Source: Lentzea indica (GTDB lineage Bacteria; Actinomycetota; Actinomycetes; Mycobacteriales; Pseudonocardiaceae). Taken from it: a stretch of DNA of 36,152 nucleotides. Shown in pieces: positions 3,696 through 24,273 of the stretch (position 1 is its first letter; each line of letters opens with the position of its first letter). The DNA lies in the NCBI RefSeq assembly GCF_012184385.1, contig NZ_VSRL01000074.1, forward strand, positions 1 through 36,152. Reading direction: 5' to 3'. The translations under genes were made by a program, and so were the position numbers. Below the pieces are notes generated by a model. The model was not told the DNA's origin. It ran no database searches and saw only the letters and a program-made list of their open reading frames with translations.

Positions 3696-3743
3696 TTGAG
3701 ACTTTAGAGGTGAACTCCAGCGGAAACTGAGCGAAAGTCTCAA
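3696..3743. promoter_or_regulatory. Perfect 10-bp inverted repeat, probable operator of the tandem MerR regulator
   Basis: TTGAGACTTT (3696-3705) and AAAGTCTCAA (3734-3743) are exact inverted copies separated by 28 bases. They lie in the divergent region between the MerR gene (GTG at 3693) and the esterase gene (ATG at 3773). Ordinary MerR operators are compact dyads of about 20 bp within a promoter spacer. The wider spacing here could fit a protein carrying two HTH domains, though this is inference. One arm nearly touches the MerR start codon, which suggests autoregulation. Confidence 0.6.
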
Positions 3744-3772
3744 TGGAGCCTTCAATGTTACGGTTTAGGCAC

Positions 3773-4885
3773 ATGAGCCAGGACATTCGTGAGTTCATCA
3801 GTCCCTTCACCGAGCTCTTGGCGTTCGGCGAGCCGACGCACCGGGAGCACGCCCACACCTGGATCCGCAACGAGCTGTTCGAGCAGCTGGCGGGCCTGGG
3901 CTTCCGCTCGATCGCCCTCGAGACCTGCCGGATCAGGGGGCTCGTGGTCGACGACTACGTCCAGGGCGGACCTGGCGAGCTCGACGCGGTCATGAAGGAA
4001 GGTTTCTCCCACGCGTTCGGGGAGTGGCCGGCCAACCGCGAGCTGGTCGCCTGGATGCGCGAGTACAACGCGGACAAAGCGCCACAAGAGCGCCTGGCGT
4101 TCCACGGCTTCGACTTCCAGACCGAGACGACCAGCGCGCCCAGCCCGCGCCCCTACCTGGAGCACGCCCGCGACTACCTGGGCGAGGACGTCGACCTGAC
4201 CATCGACGATGAGAAGTGGAGTCGCGACGAGGCCGTTCTGGATCTCACCAAGTCACCCGGACGGTCGGAAGAAGCCATCAGGCTGCGTGAGATCGGCACC
4301 GGGATGCTCAAGCGGCTGCACGCGCGCAAGACCGTCGACGGCGCCTGGAGCCGCGCGGAAACGCACCTGACGGCCGGCTTGAGCCTCCTGCAGTACCACC
4401 GGGAGTGCGCGGAGCCGAACCCGTTGGGCGTGCGCCTCAACCGGCTGTGTCAGATGCGGGACGGCGTGATGGCCCGCAACCTGCTGGAGATCCGGCGCGC
4501 CGAGGCGGGCCGTGGACCGACGTTCGTGTTCGCGCACAACGCCCACCTGCAACGCACCAACAGTTCGATGGAGATGGCCGGCGAGCGCATCGAGTGGTTC
4601 TCCGCGGGCGCGCTCGTGGCGCCCGTCCTCGGCGACCAGTACACGGTCATCGCGGGCACCCTCGGCCGCAACGACACCTTTGGGCTGGGTGAACCGGACA
4701 AAGACACCTTGGAAGGTCGGTTGCAGGGCCGTTTCACCACCTGGGGCATGACCAAGGACAAGCCGGAAGGAAAGACCCGCACCGACACCACGCTGGAAAT
4801 GGGCTACTTCCCGCTCGATCAGCACCTGATGGACGGTGCTGACGCGCTGCTGCACGTCAGGGTTGGTCGTCCAGTGACGCGGTGA
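3773..4885 (+). CDS. Erythromycin esterase family protein
   Basis: The protein has 370 residues. The ATG at 3773 (MSQDIREF) was preferred over the in-frame ATG at 3743 because the latter lies inside the operator dyad. Conserved family features are visible: GEPTH with Glu20 and His23 (equivalent to the GE.TH catalytic segment of EreA/EreB-like enzymes), the ALETCR strand, FHGFDFQ, and FAHNAHLQR with His255 and His258. EreA/EreB open the macrolactone ring of erythromycin. Many environmental members of this family have no proven macrolide activity. The divergent MerR regulator suggests inducible expression and hence a resistance or detoxification role. The 3' end overlaps the convergent next gene by 29 bases. 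Confidence 0.85.
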   Translation: MSQDIREFISPFTELLAFGEPTHREHAHTWIRNELFEQLAGLGFRSIALETCRIRGLVVDDYVQGGPGELDAVMKEGFSHAFGEWPANRELVAWMREYNADKAPQERLAFHGFDFQTETTSAPSPRPYLEHARDYLGEDVDLTIDDEKWSRDEAVLDLTKSPGRSEEAIRLREIGTGMLKRLHARKTVDGAWSRAETHLTAGLSLLQYHRECAEPNPLGVRLNRLCQMRDGVMARNLLEIRRAEAGRGPTFVFAHNAHLQRTNSSMEMAGERIEWFSAGALVAPVLGDQYTVIAGTLGRNDTFGLGEPDKDTLEGRLQGRFTTWGMTKDKPEGKTRTDTTLEMGYFPLDQHLMDGADALLHVRVGRPVTR

Positions 4886-5480: not shown

Positions 5481-6602
5481 GTGGTGTTCCGCACGCTCTA
5501 CCGAACGATCCTCGGTCCTGATCGAACCCGAGTGCTCGTCAAAGCACTCGGTCGATGGAGCCTGCTCGTCTGCGCCGCTCTGATCATCTACGCCTTCGTC
5601 TGGGCGATCGTCGGCAGCGTCACGTACGTGCGCCAAGAGGACTCGGACGGCTGGTGGGTCGTGATCTTCCTGGTCACGCTCGGGCCGTACGTGCTGCTGA
5701 TCTGGTCTCCGCTCTACGCCTGGCGACTGGCGGCGGCCGGGTTCTACTTCGTCGGCCTTCTCGTCGAAGGGGACGGTTCGAGCGACTTCCAGTACTGGAC
5801 CACGGTGCCGCTCCTGGTCGCGGTCGCGGCCTTCTACTCGCGCCCGATCGTCATCACGGTCACGTTGATCAGCACGGCACTGGTTCCGTTCGTTGAACCG
5901 GTGGACGACTCGGTGGCGTTCTTCGTGCCCGCCATCGCAGCGGTCGTCTATCTGTTCGGTGCGCGCGGCAGGGCGGAACGCGAACTCGAAGAAGAGCGCG
6001 ACGCCAAGGCCGCTCTGGAGGAACGTGCCCGCATCGCGCGCGAGATGCACGACGTCGTGGCGCACCACATGTCGATGGTGGTCGTGAGGTGCGAGACCGC
6101 GCCTTACCGCCTCAAGGGACTGAACGAGGAGGCCGCGCGCGAGTTCGCGGAACTCGGCCAGGCGGCCAGGGAAGCCATCACCGACATGCAACGCCTGCTC
6201 GGCGTGCTCAGGACGAACGGCCAGGAGCTGGAACGGGAACCGCAGCCCGGGATCAGCCGCATCCCGGAACTGACCAGGCCCGGCGACGAGGCTGAGGTCG
6301 ACGTGGACGACGTGCCGGAGGCGGTGGGCCTCACCGCGTACCGGATCGTGCAGGAGGCGCTGACGAACGCGACCAGGCACGCGCCCGGCTCGAAGGCGTC
6401 CGTCCACGTGCACAAGAACGAGGGCCGGCTCGACGTGCTGGTGATCAACACCGCCGGAGGGCCGTCGATGGGCGGTGGCAGCGGGCAGGGCCTGGTGGGC
6501 ATGCGTGAACGCGTGGCGGTGCACGGTGGCACGCTGACCGTGAAGTCGACCGAGGACGGCGGCTTCATGGTGCGGGCGAGAATTCCGTTGGGGGACAAGT
6601 GA
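5481..6602 (+). CDS. Sensor histidine kinase, NarL/DesK-type (HisKA_3)
   Basis: The protein has 373 residues. The N-terminal 150 residues hold about five hydrophobic membrane segments with short loops and no large sensor domain, suggesting that it senses the membrane itself or uses a partner. A short coiled coil (ERELEEERDAKAALEERARI) leads to the H-box REMHDVVAHHMSMVVV with phosphoacceptor His190. The ATPase part has the N-box IVQEALTNATRHAPG and a glycine-rich GGGSGQGLVGMRERV. The GTG start is preceded 4 bases upstream by TAGCAT, a possible -10 box that would give an almost leaderless mRNA. Its stop overlaps the GTG of the response regulator (GTGA), showing translational coupling. Confidence 0.92.
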   Translation: MVFRTLYRTILGPDRTRVLVKALGRWSLLVCAALIIYAFVWAIVGSVTYVRQEDSDGWWVVIFLVTLGPYVLLIWSPLYAWRLAAAGFYFVGLLVEGDGSSDFQYWTTVPLLVAVAAFYSRPIVITVTLISTALVPFVEPVDDSVAFFVPAIAAVVYLFGARGRAERELEEERDAKAALEERARIAREMHDVVAHHMSMVVVRCETAPYRLKGLNEEAAREFAELGQAAREAITDMQRLLGVLRTNGQELEREPQPGISRIPELTRPGDEAEVDVDDVPEAVGLTAYRIVQEALTNATRHAPGSKASVHVHKNEGRLDVLVINTAGGPSMGGGSGQGLVGMRERVAVHGGTLTVKSTEDGGFMVRARIPLGDK

Positions 6603-7251
6603 TCAGGGTGGTCGTGGTCGACGACCAGGAAATGGTCCGCGAGGGCTTCTCCGCGCTGCTCAACGCGCAGGAGGACATCGAGGTGATCGGCGCGGCGGGC
6701 AACGGCGTCGAGGGCGTCGCACTCGCGCGCAGCGTCAAACCGGACGTCGTGCTGATGGACGTCCGCATGCCCGAGATGGACGGTCTCACCGCCACCAGGC
6801 TGTTGCTGAACGGTTCGGTCGAGACCAAGGTCCTCGTGCTGACCACGTTCGACCTCGACGACTACGTCTACGAGGCACTGCAGGCCGGTGCGAGCGGGTT
6901 CCTGCTCAAGCACGCACCGCCCGCGAGCTGCTCAACGCCGTCCGCGTGGTGGCCGCGGGGGAGGCCTTGCTGGCGCCGTCCATCACCAAGCGCCTGATCG
7001 AGGACTTCGTGAAGGCCCGTCGCACCGACCGCGTCCGGCCGGCCCAGCTGAACGTCCTCACCGAACGCGAGACCGAGATCCTCGTGCTGGTCGCGCAGGG
7101 CCTGTCGAACACCGAGATCGCCGCGCACCTCGTGCTCGCCGAGCAGACGGTCAAGACGCACGTGAGCCGCGTGCTCACCAAGCTCGGGCTCCGCGACCGC
7201 GCCCAGGCCGTCATCGCGGCGTACGAGAGCGGGCTCGTAGTACCGGGGTAG
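6599..7251 (+). pseudogene. NarL/LuxR-type response regulator, interrupted by a 1-base frameshift near 6920
   Basis: The receiver domain reads from GTG 6599 (VVVDDQEMVREGF, phosphoacceptor Asp54 in VLMDVRMP, VLVLTTFDLDDYVYEAL). At about 6917-6924 the frame changes. Upstream ends LLKHAPP; the downstream frame continues RELLNAVRVVAAGEALLAP and then the LuxR HTH (LTERETEILVLVAQGLSNTE, TVKTHVSRVLTKLGLRDRAQ), stopping at 7251. Restoring one C in the C run (CCGCCC to CCGCCCC) gives a continuous regulator of about 217 residues of normal length. The two halves match family expectation at the join, so this is either a very recent mutation or, more likely, a base-calling error. It is the cognate regulator of the kinase, whose stop overlaps this gene's GTG. 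Confidence 0.85.
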
Positions 7252-7313: not shown

Positions 7314-8018
7314 ATGCGCCGAGCCGTTCTGTTCCTCCTGCTGATCGCTGTTCCCGCGGTCGCGCCGTCGATCGCCGAGTGGCGCACCGACGTCGCCCGC
7401 CGGGTCGCGATCGTCGGCGATCTCGCCACCGCACGTGACGTCGTGGTCGTCGTGCCGGGGTCCGATGTGGACGTCGACAGGTTCGACCGCACCATCGGGA
7501 AGATGGCGGCCAACCTGTTCGAGCAGGCTCATCGCGACGATCTGGCGGTGGTCGCCTGGCTCGGGTACCGGACGCCGCAGGGACTTGGTGTGGACGCCGC
7601 CACCGGTGGGCTGGCCAGAACGGCCGCGGCTGAGCTCGTCGAGTTCGTGCGCGCCTTGCACACCAACGCCCGCATCCACGTCTTCGGGCACAGTTACGGC
7701 TCGGTTGTCGTCTCGTTGGCGGCGCACGAGCTGGATGTGGACGACATCGTGTTCACCGGAAGCCCTGGCGTGCGGGCGAAGTCCGTTGCGGAGCTGGAGA
7801 CGAAGGCGAAGGTCTGGGCGATCCGGTCCAGCGGTGACTGGATGCGGTTCGTGCCCAACGTCCGGCTCGGCGACCTCGGCCACGGCACCGATCCGGCGAA
7901 CGACGACTTCGGTGCCACCGTGCTGCGGTTCGAAGGCGGCAAGCACGACACCTACTACGAACCGGGTAGCGCGACACTGACTGCGCTCGTCCGGATTGCT
8001 TCGGGGGAGAAGCCTTGA
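7314..8018 (+). CDS. Secreted alpha/beta hydrolase, DUF1023-like
   Basis: The protein has 234 residues with an N-terminal signal or anchor (MRRAVLFLLLIAVPAVAPS). The fold signature resembles the actinobacterial alpha/beta hydrolase family DUF1023 (PF06259): VVVVVPGSDVDVDRFD, VVAWLGYRTPQG, then the nucleophile elbow GHSYGS with Ser127, and a C-terminal HDTYY containing a plausible catalytic His. The substrate is unknown; relatives are esterase-like. TAGTTT lies about 7 bases before the ATG and could be a -10 box of a leaderless transcript. Its stop overlaps the TTG start of the acyltransferase gene, so the two are translationally coupled. Confidence 0.8.
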   Translation: MRRAVLFLLLIAVPAVAPSIAEWRTDVARRVAIVGDLATARDVVVVVPGSDVDVDRFDRTIGKMAANLFEQAHRDDLAVVAWLGYRTPQGLGVDAATGGLARTAAAELVEFVRALHTNARIHVFGHSYGSVVVSLAAHELDVDDIVFTGSPGVRAKSVAELETKAKVWAIRSSGDWMRFVPNVRLGDLGHGTDPANDDFGATVLRFEGGKHDTYYEPGSATLTALVRIASGEKP

Positions 8019-9037
8019 GAAACCCGTTCATCGACGCCGTTCGCGCGATCGCCGTCGTCACGGTCGTGCTCGGCCACTGGCTCGTCACCTCGCTGGTGGA
8101 CACACCCACCGGCATGTACATCGACAGCCCGCTCAAGCACTTGCCCGAGCTGACACCGGTGAGCTGGGTGCTGCAGACGCTTGGCCTGTTCTTCTTCGTC
8201 GGCGGCTACGCTGCCGCCCACTCGCAGACTCCGTTCCTCACCAGGCTGAAACAGCTCGCCGTACCGACGCTGCTGATGCTCGGCTCCTGGGCGGCCGTCC
8301 TCTTCGGACTGTCGATGCGCGGTGTCGACCAGGGCACCGCCTTCAACATCGGTTTCCTGGTCACGACGCCACTGTGGTTCCTCGGCGTCTACCTGGTCCT
8401 GCTCGCCTTGAAACCGTTGGTGCGCAAGCTGGACGAGTACTCGTGGGGTGTGCTCGTCCCGATCGTGCTGGTGCTGGTGGTCCCGTACGCGGTGTGGTGG
8501 GCGGCCTGGCAGCTCGGTTACTCGTTGGCGCGCAGGAAGATTCCCGGACCGCCGTTGCTCGTGATCGGCGTCATCGGGTACGCGTTGCTAACGCAGTTCG
8601 GCGGTTACCCGACGTCGGCCGTCGGCATCCCCGGCGCGGCCGTCTCGAACCTGAACCCGCCGAACTACGCGACGCTGGCGCTGGCCTTCGCCCAGATCGG
8701 CCTGGTGCTCACCATCGCGCCGGTGCTGACCAGGCTCGGCACGACGAAACCCGCGCAGTGGCTGAACAAGCGAGCGCTGGGGATCTTCCTGGCGCACCAG
8801 AGCGCGCTGATCACCGTGACGCTGGCGCTCAGCGCGTGGGGCCCGCTGCCGGGACTGCAGCAGCCACCAGATCATCCGGGCTGGGTGTGGCAGCGACTGC
8901 TGTGGCTGCCGGTGTGCGCGGTCGTGACCTGGGGATGGCTGCGAGCACTGCGAGGCCGATCGCCGCGGCGTGCAGCACCACCACCGCGGGAGCCGGATCC
9001 AGCGCCAGCATCGGCGGAACGCACGCCAGCGCCGTGA
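8015..9037 (+). CDS. Integral membrane acyltransferase, acyltransferase-3 family
   Basis: The protein has 340 residues with about ten membrane segments. The TTG start at 8015 overlaps the preceding stop. The first segment has the family's conserved Arg and His, R10 and H21, in FIDAVRAIAVVTVVLGHW. It is followed by LGLFFFVGGYAAAHS and TPLWFLGVYLVLLAL, typical of acyltransferase-3 (PF01757) proteins that O-acylate extracytoplasmic sugars or lipids. The acceptor is unknown. The last 30 residues are Pro/Arg/Ala-rich and overlap the convergent fusion gene by 209 bases. That gene contains a second copy of this membrane domain type with the His changed to Glu, so the two are likely paralogous. Confidence 0.85.
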   Translation: MRNPFIDAVRAIAVVTVVLGHWLVTSLVDTPTGMYIDSPLKHLPELTPVSWVLQTLGLFFFVGGYAAAHSQTPFLTRLKQLAVPTLLMLGSWAAVLFGLSMRGVDQGTAFNIGFLVTTPLWFLGVYLVLLALKPLVRKLDEYSWGVLVPIVLVLVVPYAVWWAAWQLGYSLARRKIPGPPLLVIGVIGYALLTQFGGYPTSAVGIPGAAVSNLNPPNYATLALAFAQIGLVLTIAPVLTRLGTTKPAQWLNKRALGIFLAHQSALITVTLALSAWGPLPGLQQPPDHPGWVWQRLLWLPVCAVVTWGWLRALRGRSPRRAAPPPREPDPAPASAERTPAP

Positions 9038-10844
9038 GCAGCCACGGCAACCGGGTGTCGCAGCTGCCGGTGCGGGCTGTGTGGATCAGGTACCACCCGA
9101 GCAGGAGGTGGATGACGTTCTGCAGCGGGTCCACCGGCAACAGCACCAGCAGCCCTTCGCCGAGGAACCCGCTCACCACGAACCCGAGCACGCCCAGCGT
9201 CCCGAACACCACGCCCATACCGGTCGCGAGCCTGGTCCGGTGCGACTCGTGCGACAGGCGCGGGAACCCGACCATCCTGGCCTCGAACCGGTGGAACAGC
9301 AGGATGAACGGCACCAGCAGGAAGACCATCCAGATCGGTGCCTGCGCCAGCCCGAGCAACCCGACCAGAGCGCCGACGCCGGCCAGGTAAGCCAGGTACA
9401 CCGTCATCGGCGCGCGGCGCGCGAAGTTCACGACGTGCCAGGACCGGCCCTCCAGCCACGTGGTGACCCGCCCGCGAGCCAGGAGCGCCAGACACACCTG
9501 CGCCACGCCGAGCACCATCATCGAGCGCGGGTAGTCGCTGAAGAACACCAAGGCGGGCAACGTGATCGCACCCAGTGCCGCCAGCACGCGGCGCGGCACC
9601 CGTTGCAACGTGCCGTCCGCGTAGAAGAACCCGATCTGCTGCATCAGCAGCGCGCCGACGATCAGGTTCACGTACCCGCCGGTCTTCCAGTCCGTCGACG
9701 TGCGCGCGACCTCGACGCCCAGCGTCACCAGCATCAGCACGAACGGCGTGGTGCGGCGGAAGTGCTCGTGCAGCCACGCGGCGGCCGGTGTCGCGGCCAC
9801 CGCGAGCAGGTAGACCCCGAGGAACCACAACGGATGCGTGATCAACCTGCTGTACGCGTCGACCTTCACGTCCATCAGGTTCAACGCCGCGAACAACACC
9901 ACCCACAGCAGCACGAACGCGAGCACCGGCCGCAGCAGCCACGACGTCCGGCTGGACACCCAGCACCCGAAGCCGCCCTCGTGCGCCTGCCAGCTGCGCA
10001 GGTTCGCGTGCCCGCCCGCGAAGAAGAACAACGGCACCGCCTGCAACGCCCACAACCACGGCGTGCCGAAGCCGCGCAGGTGAGCAAGCGTCGCAACGGT
10101 CTCGCCGAGCACCAGCAGTGTCAGGCTGAAGAGCCGCAGGAACGTCGCGTACCGGTCCTGCTGAACGGGCGCGGCGATCGAACGCGGTTCCTCTCGGCGA
10201 CGGCCGTGCAGGCGTGCAAGTAAGAGAAAGGCCACGATCGCACTGCCGAACGCCCACGCCACCACAGGCTCGTGGCCCGGCGGCCCCCACCGCTGCCGCC
10301 ACGAGTTGAACTTCAGCCCCAGCGCGTAGGTCTCGGCGACCGCGTGACAGCGCGTCTCGGCGCCGCGGGGGTTCAGCCGGCACTGCGCGTGCAGATCGGT
10401 CGCGAGCCGGTCGTCCAGCGCCTTGCGCGCGTCCTGGCCGAGCGGATGCCCCTTGGCCTCGGCGTAGCGCAGCAGGTCGTAGCCGAGATCGTGCGCGCGG
10501 CACCCGACGCTGAAGTCCCACTCGGTGTCACCGGCCGGCCCCGAGCAGCCGCCGGAGGCGTCGACCACCCGCAACGTCCCGTCCGGCGCCGTCACGGTCT
10601 TGGGATGGCGTCCCGACTGCTGCGCGAAGTCCGACGGCAGGTTGACGTGCGGGTCGTGGGTCGCCGACGGCGCCACGAACGCCTTGACGGCGTTGGCCGC
10701 GGCGATCACTTCACCGCTGGGCGGCACCCCGTTGTCGCCGCTCGCCGGGCGTGAGGCGATCACTCCGCACACGAACACCGCGAGCGTGATCACCGTGAAC
10801 CGGAACCAGGCCGGGAGTCGGAGGAGGAGTTTGCGCGCACCCAT
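8829..10844 (-). CDS. Fusion: phospholipase A2 domain + acyltransferase-3-like membrane domain + DUF4383-like C-terminus
   Basis: The protein has 671 residues. A membrane anchor (about 14-31) is followed by an extracytoplasmic domain. Residues 96-180 resemble prokaryotic phospholipase A2 (Streptomyces violaceoruber type): CSGP, SVGCRAHDLGYD with His118-Asp119, ALDDRL with Asp144 at the position of the second catalytic residue, and four cysteines (100, 115, 155, 166) spaced for two disulfides. A second TM (193-210) leads to a multi-TM region (about 231-520) like acyltransferase-3: YATFLRLFSLTLLVLGE, VPLFFFAGGHANLRSW, THPLWFLGVYLLAVA. The family His is Glu248 here, so acyl transfer may be lost. 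The last 4-TM part (DPLQNVIHLLLGWYLIHTAR) resembles DUF4383. The gene starts 41 bases after the TetR stop on the same strand. Domain assignments are by eye; the PLA2 call is the firmest. Confidence 0.75.
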   Translation of the reverse strand: MGARKLLLRLPAWFRFTVITLAVFVCGVIASRPASGDNGVPPSGEVIAAANAVKAFVAPSATHDPHVNLPSDFAQQSGRHPKTVTAPDGTLRVVDASGGCSGPAGDTEWDFSVGCRAHDLGYDLLRYAEAKGHPLGQDARKALDDRLATDLHAQCRLNPRGAETRCHAVAETYALGLKFNSWRQRWGPPGHEPVVAWAFGSAIVAFLLLARLHGRRREEPRSIAAPVQQDRYATFLRLFSLTLLVLGETVATLAHLRGFGTPWLWALQAVPLFFFAGGHANLRSWQAHEGGFGCWVSSRTSWLLRPVLAFVLLWVVLFAALNLMDVKVDAYSRLITHPLWFLGVYLLAVAATPAAAWLHEHFRRTTPFVLMLVTLGVEVARTSTDWKTGGYVNLIVGALLMQQIGFFYADGTLQRVPRRVLAALGAITLPALVFFSDYPRSMMVLGVAQVCLALLARGRVTTWLEGRSWHVVNFARRAPMTVYLAYLAGVGALVGLLGLAQAPIWMVFLLVPFILLFHRFEARMVGFPRLSHESHRTRLATGMGVVFGTLGVLGFVVSGFLGEGLLVLLPVDPLQNVIHLLLGWYLIHTARTGSCDTRLPWLLTALACVPPMLALDPAPAVVVLHAAAIGLAVLAAIPRSRPRTPAATAVAATPSPDDLVAAAVPAAGPTR

Positions 10845-10885: not shown

Positions 10886-11458
10886 TCACGAGGTCACGAC
10901 GGCCGGAGTGAGCGATGCGAGTGCCATCCGAGACAGCAAAGCGGCCATCTGGTCGCGGTCGAGGTGCGCGCTGTGAGGGGTCGAGTTGATCAACCCGAAG
11001 ACCGCGTGCGCCGCCGCCCGCGCGGTCGGCTCGTCGAAGTCCGGCACCGTCCGCCTGATCGTCTCCACCCACACCTCGACGTAGCGTCGCTGTAACGCCC
11101 GCACGCGCCGGCGGTCCGGATCGGTGAGGTTGGCGAGGTTGCGCATCTGCACGGTGATCAGCGCCGGGTCGTCCAGCGCGAAGTCGACGTGCCAGCCGAC
11201 CAGTTCCTGCAGCGCTTCCGAAGCGCTCGACGCCGCGTCCACGCGCGCCTGGCCGCCGTCCAGCAGCCGTTCGGAGATCGACGTCAGCATCTCGCCGAGC
11301 ATCGCGTCCTTGCTGCGGAAGTGCCGGTAGAGCGCGGGGCCGGAGATCCCGACGGCCGCTCCGATGTCGTCGATGCCCACGCCGTGGAAGCCGTGCCGGG
11401 CGAAGAGCTCGGCCGCGGCGTTGAGGATCTGGTCCCGACGTGAGGGTTTCTCGGCCAC
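10886..11458 (-). CDS. TetR/AcrR-family regulator, probably AccR-like (acyl-CoA metabolism)
   Basis: The protein has 190 residues starting with GTG at 11458. The N-terminal HTH is clear: RRDQILNAAAELFARHGFHG, then VGISGPALYRHFRSKDAMLG. The C-terminal ligand domain (NLTDPDRRRVRALQRRYVEV) is of the type found next to acyl-CoA carboxylase clusters. A degenerate copy (11467-11482) of the 16-bp palindrome that appears twice before the carboxylase operon lies 9 bases upstream of its start, suggesting autorepression. From memory, AccR of Streptomyces avermitilis represses an accD1A1-hmgL-fadE operon through GTTAA-N6-TTAAC, close to the sites here. Orthology is inferred. It probably shares a transcript with the downstream PLA2 fusion gene. 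Confidence 0.85.
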   Translation of the reverse strand: MAEKPSRRDQILNAAAELFARHGFHGVGIDDIGAAVGISGPALYRHFRSKDAMLGEMLTSISERLLDGGQARVDAASSASEALQELVGWHVDFALDDPALITVQMRNLANLTDPDRRRVRALQRRYVEVWVETIRRTVPDFDEPTARAAAHAVFGLINSTPHSAHLDRDQMAALLSRMALASLTPAVVTS

Positions 11459-21619: not shown

Positions 21620-21732
21620 GCCTCGCACGCTACTACTCGTTGGTAACTTTAGGCAGGGTGCGATGAAAGATCGCTGGCCCATTCGGGCTTTTGGGCGTGC
21701 CAACGGCGCTGACGAGGAATAACGTCGTTCTC

Positions 21733-23040
21733 GTGAGTGACCATGGGCACAGCACGGCCGTAGCTGCGTTGACCGCGCAGTACGCCGCGATGCGCGAAGG
21801 TGCGCCAGTGCGGCTCGCTAAGAAGACGTCGAACCTCTTCCGCTTCCGGGCCGACCAGGCCGGCGGGCTGGACGTCGGCAGGTTCGACCAGGTCCTGTCC
21901 GTGGACCCGGTCGGACGCACCGCACAGGTGCAGGGCATGACCACCTACGAGAACCTCGTCGCCGCGACACTGCGCCACGGCCTGATGCCGCTGGTCGTGC
22001 CGCAGCTCAAGACCATCACGATCGGCGGGGCGGTAGCGGGCCTCGGCATCGAGTCCACGTCCTTCCGCAACGGCCTGCCGCACGAGTCCGTGCGCGAGCT
22101 GGAGATCCTCACCGGCGACGGCGAGGTCGTGATCGCCAAACCGGACGACGACCTGTTCCGCGCGTTCCCCAACTCCTACGGGACCCTGGGCTACGCGCTG
22201 CGGCTGGAGATCGAACTGGAGCCGGTGCGCCAGTACGTGAGACTGCGGCACGTGCCGTTCGGCTCGTTCGCCGAGTGCGCCGCGGTCATCGAGGAGGTCT
22301 GCTCGGACGGTTCGGCGGACTTCGTCGACGGCACGGTCTTCTCCCGCGGCGAGATGTACCTGACGTTGGGCCACTACGCCGACATCGCGCCGTACACGTC
22401 CGATTACACAGGCAACCAGATCTACTACCGGTCCATCCAGAAGCGCCGCACGGACCACCTGACGATCCGCGACTACCTGTGGCGCTGGGACACCGACTGG
22501 TTCTGGTGCTCACGGGCGTTCGGCGCGCAGAACCCGGTCGTGCGCCGCCTGTGGCCGAAGCGCTACCTGCGTTCGGACGTGTATCGCCGGTTGGTGGCCC
22601 GATATCGCCGCTTCAAGCCGCCGACGACCGTCGAGCCGGTGATCCAGGACGTGGAGATTCCTGTTTCGGCGCTGGCTGAGTTCCTCGACTTCTTCGACCG
22701 CGAGATCGGCATCTCGCCGGTGTGGCTGTGCCCGGTTCGCTTGCGCGACACCACGGGCTGGCCTTTGTACCCGATGAACCCGGACGTGCTGTACGTCAAC
22801 GTCGGGTTCTGGTCGGAGGTCCCGGTGCGGCCGGGAGAACGGATGGGTGACCGCAACCGGCTGATCGAGCGCGAGGTGGCGCGGCTGGGCGGCCACAAGT
22901 CGCTGTACTCGGACTCCTACTACACCGAGGACGAGTTCTGGCGGCACTACAACGGTTCGCACTACCGGTCCGTGAAGTCCCGGTACGACCAGACGAACCG
23001 ACTGCCTGATCTGTACGCCAAGTGTGTCAGGGGACGATGA
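21733..23040 (+). CDS. tmsA: FAD-dependent oxidoreductase of 10-methyl fatty acid synthesis (10-methylene reductase)
   Basis: The protein has about 435 residues. The start is uncertain: TTG 21691, GTG 21697 and GTG 21733 are in frame. The last was chosen because homologues begin near APVRLAKKTSNLFR and GAGGA lies upstream. The N-terminal FAD-binding domain has VQGMTTYENLV, PQLKTITIGGAVAGLGIE and SFRNGLPHESV, typical of the DWARF1/DprE1-like flavoproteins. In mycobacteria and relatives, TmsA (BfaA) reduces the 10-methylene group that TmsB adds to oleoyl phospholipid, giving 10-methylstearate (tuberculostearic acid). The gene is directly joined to the methyltransferase (stop and ATG abut), which strongly supports this assignment. 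Confidence 0.87.
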   Translation: MSDHGHSTAVAALTAQYAAMREGAPVRLAKKTSNLFRFRADQAGGLDVGRFDQVLSVDPVGRTAQVQGMTTYENLVAATLRHGLMPLVVPQLKTITIGGAVAGLGIESTSFRNGLPHESVRELEILTGDGEVVIAKPDDDLFRAFPNSYGTLGYALRLEIELEPVRQYVRLRHVPFGSFAECAAVIEEVCSDGSADFVDGTVFSRGEMYLTLGHYADIAPYTSDYTGNQIYYRSIQKRRTDHLTIRDYLWRWDTDWFWCSRAFGAQNPVVRRLWPKRYLRSDVYRRLVARYRRFKPPTTVEPVIQDVEIPVSALAEFLDFFDREIGISPVWLCPVRLRDTTGWPLYPMNPDVLYVNVGFWSEVPVRPGERMGDRNRLIEREVARLGGHKSLYSDSYYTEDEFWRHYNGSHYRSVKSRYDQTNRLPDLYAKCVRGR

Positions 23041-24273
23041 ATGCGGTTGGCCTCCATTTTTCAGCGCATCACGGGTGGCAGCGACGTTCGCTTCCAGGCC
23101 TACGACGGCAGTACCGCAGGCCCTTCGTCGGCCGCGGTGTCGATCGACATCAGAACGCCGGAAGCCTTGTCCTACCTGGCTTCCGCGCCAGGTGAGCTCG
23201 GCCTTGCCCGCGCTTACGTGACAGGGCACCTGGAGATCCTCGGCGACGTGCACGCCGGCCTCTCCCGGCTCTCCGAGTTCTCCCTGCGAGAGCTCCCGTG
23301 GTTGCAACGGGTGGAGCTGCTGCGCTTCCTGGGCAAAATCCGGTTGTCGCACAAGGTGCCCGCACCGCCGCAGGAGGCCCGCCTGCGCGGCCTGCGGCAC
23401 TCCAAGGCCCGCGACCAGCAGGCCATCGCGCACCACTACGACGTCTCGAACCAGTTCTACGAGTGGATCCTCGGCCCGTCGATGGCCTACACCTGCGCGG
23501 TGTACCCGTCGCTCGAGTCCACGTTGGAGGAAGCCCAGTTCGAGAAGCACGACCTCGTGGCTCGCAAGCTGGGGCTGAAGTCCGGCATGAGGCTCCTGGA
23601 CGTCGGCTGCGGCTGGGGCGGCATGGTCATGCACGCGGCCCGCGAGTACGGAGTGCGTGCGATCGGTGTCACGTTGTCGCGCAACCAGGCCGAGTGGGCG
23701 CAGAAGGCGATCGTCGAGGCCGGGTTGTCGGATCTGGCCGAGGTGCGCCACCTCGACTACCGCGACGTGCGGGAGACAGGCTTCGACGCGGTCTCGTCGA
23801 TCGGCCTGACCGAGCACATCGGCAAGGCGAAGCTGCCAGGGTACTTCGCTTCCCTGTACGGGAAGCTGAAGCCGGGCGGACGGCTGCTGAACCACTGCAT
23901 CACCCGGCCGAACAACAAGGAGCGCTCGCTGTCCGGGCCGTTCATCAACCGGTACGTGTTCCCTGACGGTGAGCTGGTCGGGCCTGGGTACATCGTGTCC
24001 CAGATGCACGACACGGGGTTCGAGGTACGGCACGAGGAGAACATCCGAGAGCACTACGCGCTGACGTTGGCCGCCTGGAGCCGCAACCTCGACGCGCACT
24101 GGGAAGAGGCGGTCGAGGAGGTCGGGGAGGCTCGGGCTCGGGTGTGGCGGTTGTACCTGGCCGCTTCTCGGCTCGGGTTCGAGCGCAACAACATCCAGCT
24201 GCACCAGGTGCTCGGGGTGAAGCTGGACGGCACGAAGTCGCACATGCCGTTGAGGCCGACCTGGCTGTCCTGA
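23041..24273 (+). CDS. tmsB: Fatty-acyl-phospholipid C10 methyltransferase, cyclopropane-synthase family
   Basis: The protein has 410 residues. The ATG immediately follows the tmsA stop. The SAM-binding motif I is LLDVGCGWGGMVMHAA (from residue 185). Other family blocks are IAHHYDVSNQFYEWILGPSM, YTCAVYPSLESTLEEAQ, GLTEHIG, and KPGGRLLNHCITRP. An N-terminal SCP2-like region (about 1-100, LGLARAYVTGHLEILGDV) precedes the catalytic domain, as in UfaA1/TmsB (BfaB). The enzyme adds a methylene group to the double bond of oleoyl chains in membrane phospholipid using S-adenosylmethionine. With TmsA it predicts 10-methyl branched fatty acids in this organism. A strong hairpin follows 4 bases after the stop. 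Confidence 0.9.
   Translation: MRLASIFQRITGGSDVRFQAYDGSTAGPSSAAVSIDIRTPEALSYLASAPGELGLARAYVTGHLEILGDVHAGLSRLSEFSLRELPWLQRVELLRFLGKIRLSHKVPAPPQEARLRGLRHSKARDQQAIAHHYDVSNQFYEWILGPSMAYTCAVYPSLESTLEEAQFEKHDLVARKLGLKSGMRLLDVGCGWGGMVMHAAREYGVRAIGVTLSRNQAEWAQKAIVEAGLSDLAEVRHLDYRDVRETGFDAVSSIGLTEHIGKAKLPGYFASLYGKLKPGGRLLNHCITRPNNKERSLSGPFINRYVFPDGELVGPGYIVSQMHDTGFEVRHEENIREHYALTLAAWSRNLDAHWEEAVEEVGEARARVWRLYLAASRLGFERNNIQLHQVLGVKLDGTKSHMPLRPTWLS

Follow-up and report, generated by a model that had tools for sequence, protein, structure and literature searches.

Acyltransferase-3 (AT3) domains are known both alone and joined to other domains: the accessible part of a review of the family covers stand-alone AT3 proteins as well as AT3-SGNH and AT3-alanine racemase fusions, and the word phospholipase does not occur in it. 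In the available portions of the AT3 literature, the acyl-coenzyme A (CoA) site and the catalytic residues are assigned to DxxR and a His in transmembrane helix 1 (TMH1), FxxxxG in TMH2, RxxR in TMH3 and a Tyr in TMH9, and the available text of one report describes an AT3 protein required for sporangium formation in Actinoplanes (PMC11064477). Here we analyse a 36,152-nucleotide stretch of DNA from Lentzea indica (contig NZ_VSRL01000074.1; hereafter the window), in which one gene encodes a phospholipase A2 (PLA2) domain fused to an AT3-like membrane domain of the TmAT fold and a tail of four membrane helices (Table 1). The protein joins two known families in a combination that is new, conserved and partly disarmed. 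Together with the acyl-handling enzymes and sensor genes found beside the same PLA2 in relatives, it hints at a means of editing cell-envelope lipids not described before. A literature search, with subscription papers and preprints outside its scope, found no PLA2-AT3 protein.

A PLA2-TmAT fusion in one reading frame

The original prediction described a single polypeptide consisting of a PLA2, an AT3-type membrane domain and a third transmembrane domain, and this three-part make-up proved right. The window protein matches PF09056 over residues 98–174 (E 2.2e-8; 35.1 bits, above the curated cut-off of 29.4), as do 39/39 rows of the fused-family alignment at E ≤ 0.01. Its central part is predicted to adopt the ten-helix TmAT fold, with GWT1/PIGW and HGSNAT as the best structural matches (VIA-align), and four helices are modelled in the tail. 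The proposed likeness of this tail to DUF4383 held less well: the match to PF14325 is short and weak (E 0.005; 17.5 bits, below the cut-off of 27), and DUF4383 is found at E ≤ 0.01 in 3 of the 39 family rows. A scan of NCBIfam gave no informative match.

The PLA2 and TmAT parts share one open frame in 24/24 genomes of the genus, that of the window included; for G004 and G008 the alignment falls in two pieces, yet both lie inside one open frame. This single frame rules out a sequencing error or an artefact joining two genes. We further analysed a set of named loci, the best 80 of 350 relatives, which shares species with the family-genome set. Mean identity to the window protein over these 80 loci is 0.57, 0.62 and 0.65 for the three domains, and four polar residues outside the PLA2 part (Gln268, Arg299, Gln403 and Glu521) are invariant in the fused family.

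Within the PLA2 domain, the predicted active-site residues His118-Asp119 and Asp144 and the four cysteines are in place. Cys100, Cys115, His118, Asp119, Tyr122, Asp144, Cys155 and Cys166 are unchanged in 38/38 other fused proteins and in 79/79 named loci (79 rather than 80, as the L175 row held just the TmAT half), and Asp123, one turn past Asp119, is also invariant in the named loci. Position 98, which precedes the first Cys by two residues, holds Gly in the window protein and in the same 38/38 and 79/79 sequences; 4aup, 7ygk and 8k1w, the three secreted PLA2s of solved structure that align over this column, have Asp there. We take this Asp to be a calcium ligand in the Streptomyces PLA2, an assignment for which we found no confirming paper. 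Judged from these alignments, the PLA2 dyad is intact, while the metal site is probably altered.

The acyltransferase site is remodelled in fused proteins

The alignment used to compare residues of the acyltransferase site held 27 fused rows and 53 unfused ones (13 adjacent partners, 10 neighbours and 30 other AT3s). As had been proposed, Glu248 aligns with the His of DxxRx10H in the neighbouring, convergent AT3. Surveying homologues for His or Glu at this place separated fused from unfused proteins: the Asp, Arg and His of the motif are all kept in 53/53 unfused rows, and DxxRx10H is present in 83/83 unfused open reading frames (ORFs) kept after nine fragments were set aside, whereas position 248 is His in 0/80 named fused loci and in none of the 27 fused rows. 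In 80 fused ORF records, counted without removing duplicates, DxxRx10H never follows the PLA2 part. In the named loci, position 248 is E in 56, Q in 19, L in 2, and D, T and M in one each; because E or Q occurs in 75/80, the position stays polar.

The charges of the CoA site have changed as well. At the Asp position of DxxR, 1/80 named loci have D, which is not among the five commonest residues in the 27 fused rows; 15 of these rows retain R at Arg237. At the RxxR motif of TMH3, the first Arg (Arg299) is kept in 80/80 named loci and the second (residue 302) is R in 2/80; at this second position, 13/13 adjacent partners have R and 22/27 fused rows have W. Other parts of the site are stable: Arg299, Gln268 and Gly278 are kept in 27/27 fused rows, and Gly278, Tyr483 and Glu521 in 80/80, 79/80 and 80/80 named loci, respectively. 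By sequence comparison, a different polar residue has mostly taken the place of the His and fewer of the CoA-binding charges are left, on an otherwise conserved site framework.

Distribution and origin of the fusion

Some match was found in 162/249 genomes of the wider family, and the survey for the same fusion recovered matches spanning both PLA2 and TmAT in no fewer than 23 of 46 sampled genera (a hand count among the matches listed). An identity of 91% to its nearest relatives makes the window's genome most probably a Lentzea. Titles of the named loci include Lentzea, Saccharothrix, Umezawaea, Actinosynnema, Kibdelosporangium, Actinokineospora, Actinophytocola, Amycolatopsis and Prauserella, which we take to be Pseudonocardiaceae. 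Two further titles, Nocardia sp. NRRL S-836 and Rhodococcus rhodnii, stand on one locus each; these loci are near the rest in sequence and are perhaps mislabelled.

In a quick tree without bootstrap, which has short branches around the fused clade and leaves out L151, the TmAT domains of fused proteins group in one clade and the neighbour AT3s in another (100 each). With the two apart in this tree, we reject a recent origin of the fused TmAT by copying of the convergent AT3. The fused PLA2s likewise form a single clade in a PLA2 tree. As far as these trees tell, fusion of an AT3 to the PLA2 module happened once in Pseudonocardiaceae.

Unfused PLA2 relatives have varying partners and linked sensor genes

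Unfused PLA2s already have two membrane helices, and the fused TmAT domain is homologous to the unfused AT3 partner. Of 22 PLA2 rows first counted as split in the residue comparison, 21 are unfused to TmAT, L128 being really fused. In f34, a family of another order, a His-bearing AT3 gene follows the PLA2 on the same strand in 13/16 loci (for L077, PF01757 E 1.9e-26). DxxRx10H is present in 13/13 of these adjacent partners; three are gapped at the His column in one alignment owing to late row starts, and the motif was checked separately. The remaining three loci (L086, L087 and L088) have no scored AT3, with a short motif-bearing ORF retained in L086. In f8, an alpha/beta-hydrolase lies beside the PLA2 in 13/13 loci (PF10081, assigned on L094), and in the f54 locus L091 the PLA2 and this hydrolase are fused. 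Given these three arrangements, the PLA2 module is constant and its acyl-handling partner varies. The earlier suggestion that the PLA2 and an acyl-handling part work together thus gains support from the adjacent same-strand pair of f34; as a statement of function it stays a putative one. In four f8 loci (L235, L236, L237 and L238), the PF10081 gene lies between two PLA2 copies.

The occurrence of PLA2 without TmAT in f4, f13 and f8 would fit mere co-localisation, in which the PLA2 is active alone and the TmAT domain is just an anchor. We consider this most improbable, given that conservation of the TmAT domain and of the tail is close to that of the PLA2 (see the identities above), that Gln268, Arg299, Gln403 and Glu521 are invariant, and that the unfused PLA2 has two anchors already.

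Moreover, 33/41 loci without a TmAT fusion have genes for a histidine kinase and a NarL-type response regulator upstream of the PLA2, divergently on the opposite strand (f34, 15/16; f8, 12/13; f13, 4/4; f54, 1/1; a Pseudonocardiaceae solo-PLA2 locus, 1/1; f4, 0/6). These 41 loci were chosen from the PLA2 matches listed, with at least one (G686) left out, and the thresholds of 180 bits for the regulator and 110 bits for the kinase were our choice. As controls, the pair was found in 0/20 loci of unrelated AT3 genes, for which the stretches were shorter, and in 1/38 named loci of a fused group described below. In 7/7 other genomes checked, no kinase genome-wide matches the window kinase better than the one adjacent to the PLA2, which leads by 51–58 bits in six and by 2.4 in G681; the adjacent regulator is the best match to the window regulator in 6/7. 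Taken together, the data suggest a membrane PLA2 module of long standing that is linked to sensor genes and can exchange its acyl-handling partner; in Pseudonocardiaceae this partner became part of the same protein, with a remodelled active site.

Proposed function and alternatives

From these features we infer a substrate, an activity and a mode of regulation. Set between two membrane helices, the PLA2 would be an outward-facing, membrane-tethered phospholipid acyl hydrolase; it is placed outside because of the basic residues before helix 12–30 and after helix 194–212, together with its four Cys. In the available AT3 literature, TMH1 starts from the cytosol and the catalytic face is outside, and if this topology holds, both active faces would lie on the outer side. 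There the PLA2 may cut an acyl chain from an envelope phospholipid, and the TmAT domain, derived from an acyl-CoA-dependent AT3 ancestor and presumably now without classical acyl transfer, may bind or position a lipid, lysolipid or freed acyl chain beside the PLA2 site. In most lineages the module would answer to its dedicated membrane-sensing histidine kinase and response regulator, and its job would therefore be stress-driven editing of envelope lipids. We thus lean, tentatively, towards a deacylase acting on envelope phospholipids, in which the TmAT domain would hold or move a lipid, lysolipid or acyl chain, in keeping with the phospholipid remodelling or lysolipid handling first suggested for this gene.

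Another group of fused loci has a different neighbourhood. Here the next gene along, in the orientation of the fusion, is a LytR-CpsA-Psr (LCP) gene in 27/39 family-genome loci and in 33/38 named loci (L197–L234; of the five misses, L225 and L232 end near the gene). The gene after the fusion in L107 matches PF03816 and LytR_C, and LCP-linked fusions often have a GGDEF gene before them, as judged from ORFs called mechanically and sorted by conservation. This link to an LCP glycopolymer-ligase gene suggests a cell-wall connection and is the chief argument for a rival in which the PLA2-fold domain acts on an acylated cell-wall glycopolymer or glycolipid instead of phospholipids, in a role like that of the SGNH domain in OatA or OafB. 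An AT3 with an outward hydrolase-fold domain is, in the portions of the literature available, a known pairing for glycan acylation. Gly98, which alters the usual calcium site, would also fit. Against this, the LCP link is missing in the window's own genus and in the checked unfused-PLA2 loci, where only short low-score LCP pieces were found. Furthermore, no PLA2 hydrolase is known to form an acyl-enzyme, as the SGNH serine enzymes do. We judge the glycopolymer explanation to be improbable.

Several observations are weak or weigh against an envelope phospholipid deacylase with a lipid-handling TmAT domain. Plain Foldseek on either model returned no TmAT chain among the best 50 rows, the fold being seen only via VIA-align, and its best PLA2 match was weak (E 0.33). 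The window protein has no match to PF01757 at E ≤ 1, although 11/39 fused-family rows do (best 2.7e-13). Calcium use by the PLA2, and even its activity, is unsure because Gly98 replaces the Asp of the secreted relatives. As for the sensor genes, the kinase/regulator pair is absent from all six f4 loci and, in the LCP-linked fused group, from the vicinity of 37/38 named loci (present in 1/38). No AT3 or PF10081 partner was scored beside the PLA2 in f13 (4 loci) or f4 (6 loci). Finally, Arg237 is still R in 67/80 named loci and Tyr483 is kept in 79/80, and GWT1 lacks the corresponding His and DxxR Asp yet is an acyltransferase, according to the part of the source available. Since GWT1 is active without these residues, loss of the His is not proof of lost transfer. 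The original prediction that the acyltransferase part no longer carries out ordinary transfer is thus strengthened by the loss of the His, the DxxR Asp and the second RxxR Arg, and tempered by GWT1.

The GWT1 precedent leads to another alternative, in which the TmAT domain is still acyl-CoA-dependent without the His and one protein runs a deacylation/reacylation (Lands-like) cycle on the outer leaflet. The rarity of the DxxR Asp (1/80) and of Arg302 (2/80) in fused loci and the missing PF01757 match of the window protein make such a cycle unlikely in our view.

Returning to the lipid-handling TmAT domain, a wider scheme can be drawn, which we regard as possible but doubtful. It would be an actinobacterial envelope-editing system in which the dedicated kinase and regulator control a two-anchor PLA2 with an exchangeable acyl-handling partner, be it a His-bearing AT3, an alpha/beta-hydrolase or a fused TmAT domain; the fused TmAT of Pseudonocardiaceae would be a lysolipid- or acyl-chain-binding pseudo-enzyme steering the PLA2, and a separate His-bearing AT3 would have taken over transfer in Lentzea and Saccharothrix relatives. 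With the His kept in unfused proteins and gone in fused ones, the family offers a natural test of the role of the AT3 histidine and of how a membrane acyltransferase becomes a lipid-handling module, and the sensor-linked PLA2 module can be tested as a specific candidate for the turnover of outer-leaflet phospholipids in these bacteria and other actinobacteria.

Neighbourhood of the fused gene

In the window's genus, the kinase/regulator pair heads an operon-like run that continues with an alpha/beta-hydrolase (PF06259) and the His-bearing AT3 and points towards the fusion. All four genes are found in 22/22 Lentzea-group loci and in 17 of the next 20 named loci.

Table 1 Features of the fused gene and its neighbours in the window.
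Feature	Position	Strand	Basis or remark
Fused gene: two-helix PLA2, TmAT (AT3-like) domain, four-helix tail	8829..10844	-	671 aa, ATG
N-terminal membrane anchor, residues 12-30	10755..10811	-	Model helix 12-30; hydrophobic, preceded by basic residues
PLA2 domain, residues 43-186	10287..10718	-	
Gly98 (Cys minus 2), Asp in solved secreted PLA2s	10551..10553	-	Residue alignment
His118-Asp119, PLA2 active site	10488..10493	-	Invariant 38/38 and 79/79
Asp144, dyad partner	10413..10415	-	Invariant 38/38 and 79/79
Second membrane helix, residues 194-212	10209..10265	-	Model helix 194-209; unfused PLA2s have one too
Variable linker, residues 213-229	10158..10208	-	Mean identity 0.30 vs 0.57-0.65 in domains
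TmAT (AT3-like) domain, residues 230-524	9273..10157	-	
Glu248, at place of AT3 catalytic His	10101..10103	-	Alignments with AT3 relatives
Four-helix tail, residues 535-636, weakly DUF4383-like	8937..9242	-	Model helices and weak profile match
Membrane histidine kinase (HisKA_3, HATPase_c)	5481..6602	+	
NarL-type response regulator, in two frames in window	6599..7251	+	
Alpha/beta-hydrolase (PF06259), 4-bp overlap with AT3 start	7314..8018	+	Profile match
Convergent neighbour AT3, intact DxxRx10H	8015..9037	+	PF01757 E 8.6e-17
TetR-type regulator, upstream of fusion, same strand	10886..11458	-	

The fusion and the convergent AT3 overlap tail to tail at 8829–9037, where both frames encode membrane helices; the overlap is 209 bp here and in 21/22 Lentzea-group loci, and 197 bp in the remaining one. 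In L128/L175, titled Nocardia sp. NRRL S-836, the PLA2-TmAT linker is stretched into a long Pro/Ala-rich run and the neighbour AT3 was seen solely as a shorter, weaker ORF (279 aa). The receiver and DNA-binding parts of the response regulator lie in separate frames in the window and in one piece in 22/22 Lentzea-group loci, so that the split is a private mutation or a draft-sequence error.

Elsewhere in the window, a FAD-binding oxidase gene is followed by a cyclopropane-synthase-type methyltransferase gene (21691–24270), a pair resembling the one that makes methyl-branched fatty acids in phospholipids. An erythromycin-esterase-family gene (PF05139) lies at 3743–4885 and a beta-lactamase-family serine hydrolase gene (PF00144) at 602–1762. 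The same genome encodes a second PF09056 protein (G000:C619:4420-4737), with a far stronger full-length match (143 bits) in a 183-aa frame; it is probably an ordinary secreted enzyme.

Comparison with known systems

The prokaryotic secreted PLA2s (PF09056; 1faz, 7ygk, 8k1w and 4aup) are the nearest described relatives of the hydrolase part. The fused protein is instead membrane-anchored at both ends of this domain and joined to a TmAT domain, and differs further in carrying Gly98 for Asp and the signature HDxxYDxLRY with the invariant Asp123. For the TmAT domain, the best structural matches, GWT1/PIGW and HGSNAT, are eukaryotic, have no PLA2 and share 8–12% sequence identity over the structural alignment; GWT1 resembles the fused proteins in being without the His and the DxxR Asp. 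DUF4383 (PF14325) is related to the tail by its short match below the curated cut-off.

AT3 proteins (PF01757), alone or as AT3-SGNH (OafB, OatA), have the TmAT fold in common with the fusion, which keeps the TMH2 glycine of FxxxxG, the first Arg of TMH3 and the Tyr of TMH9 and differs in being without DxxRx10H and RxxR. A profile search found no C-terminal SGNH/GDSL domain in the window protein or the fused-family rows. As in AT3-SGNH proteins, a membrane domain is joined to an outward hydrolase-type domain, but here a PLA2 takes the place of SGNH and is N-terminal rather than C-terminal.
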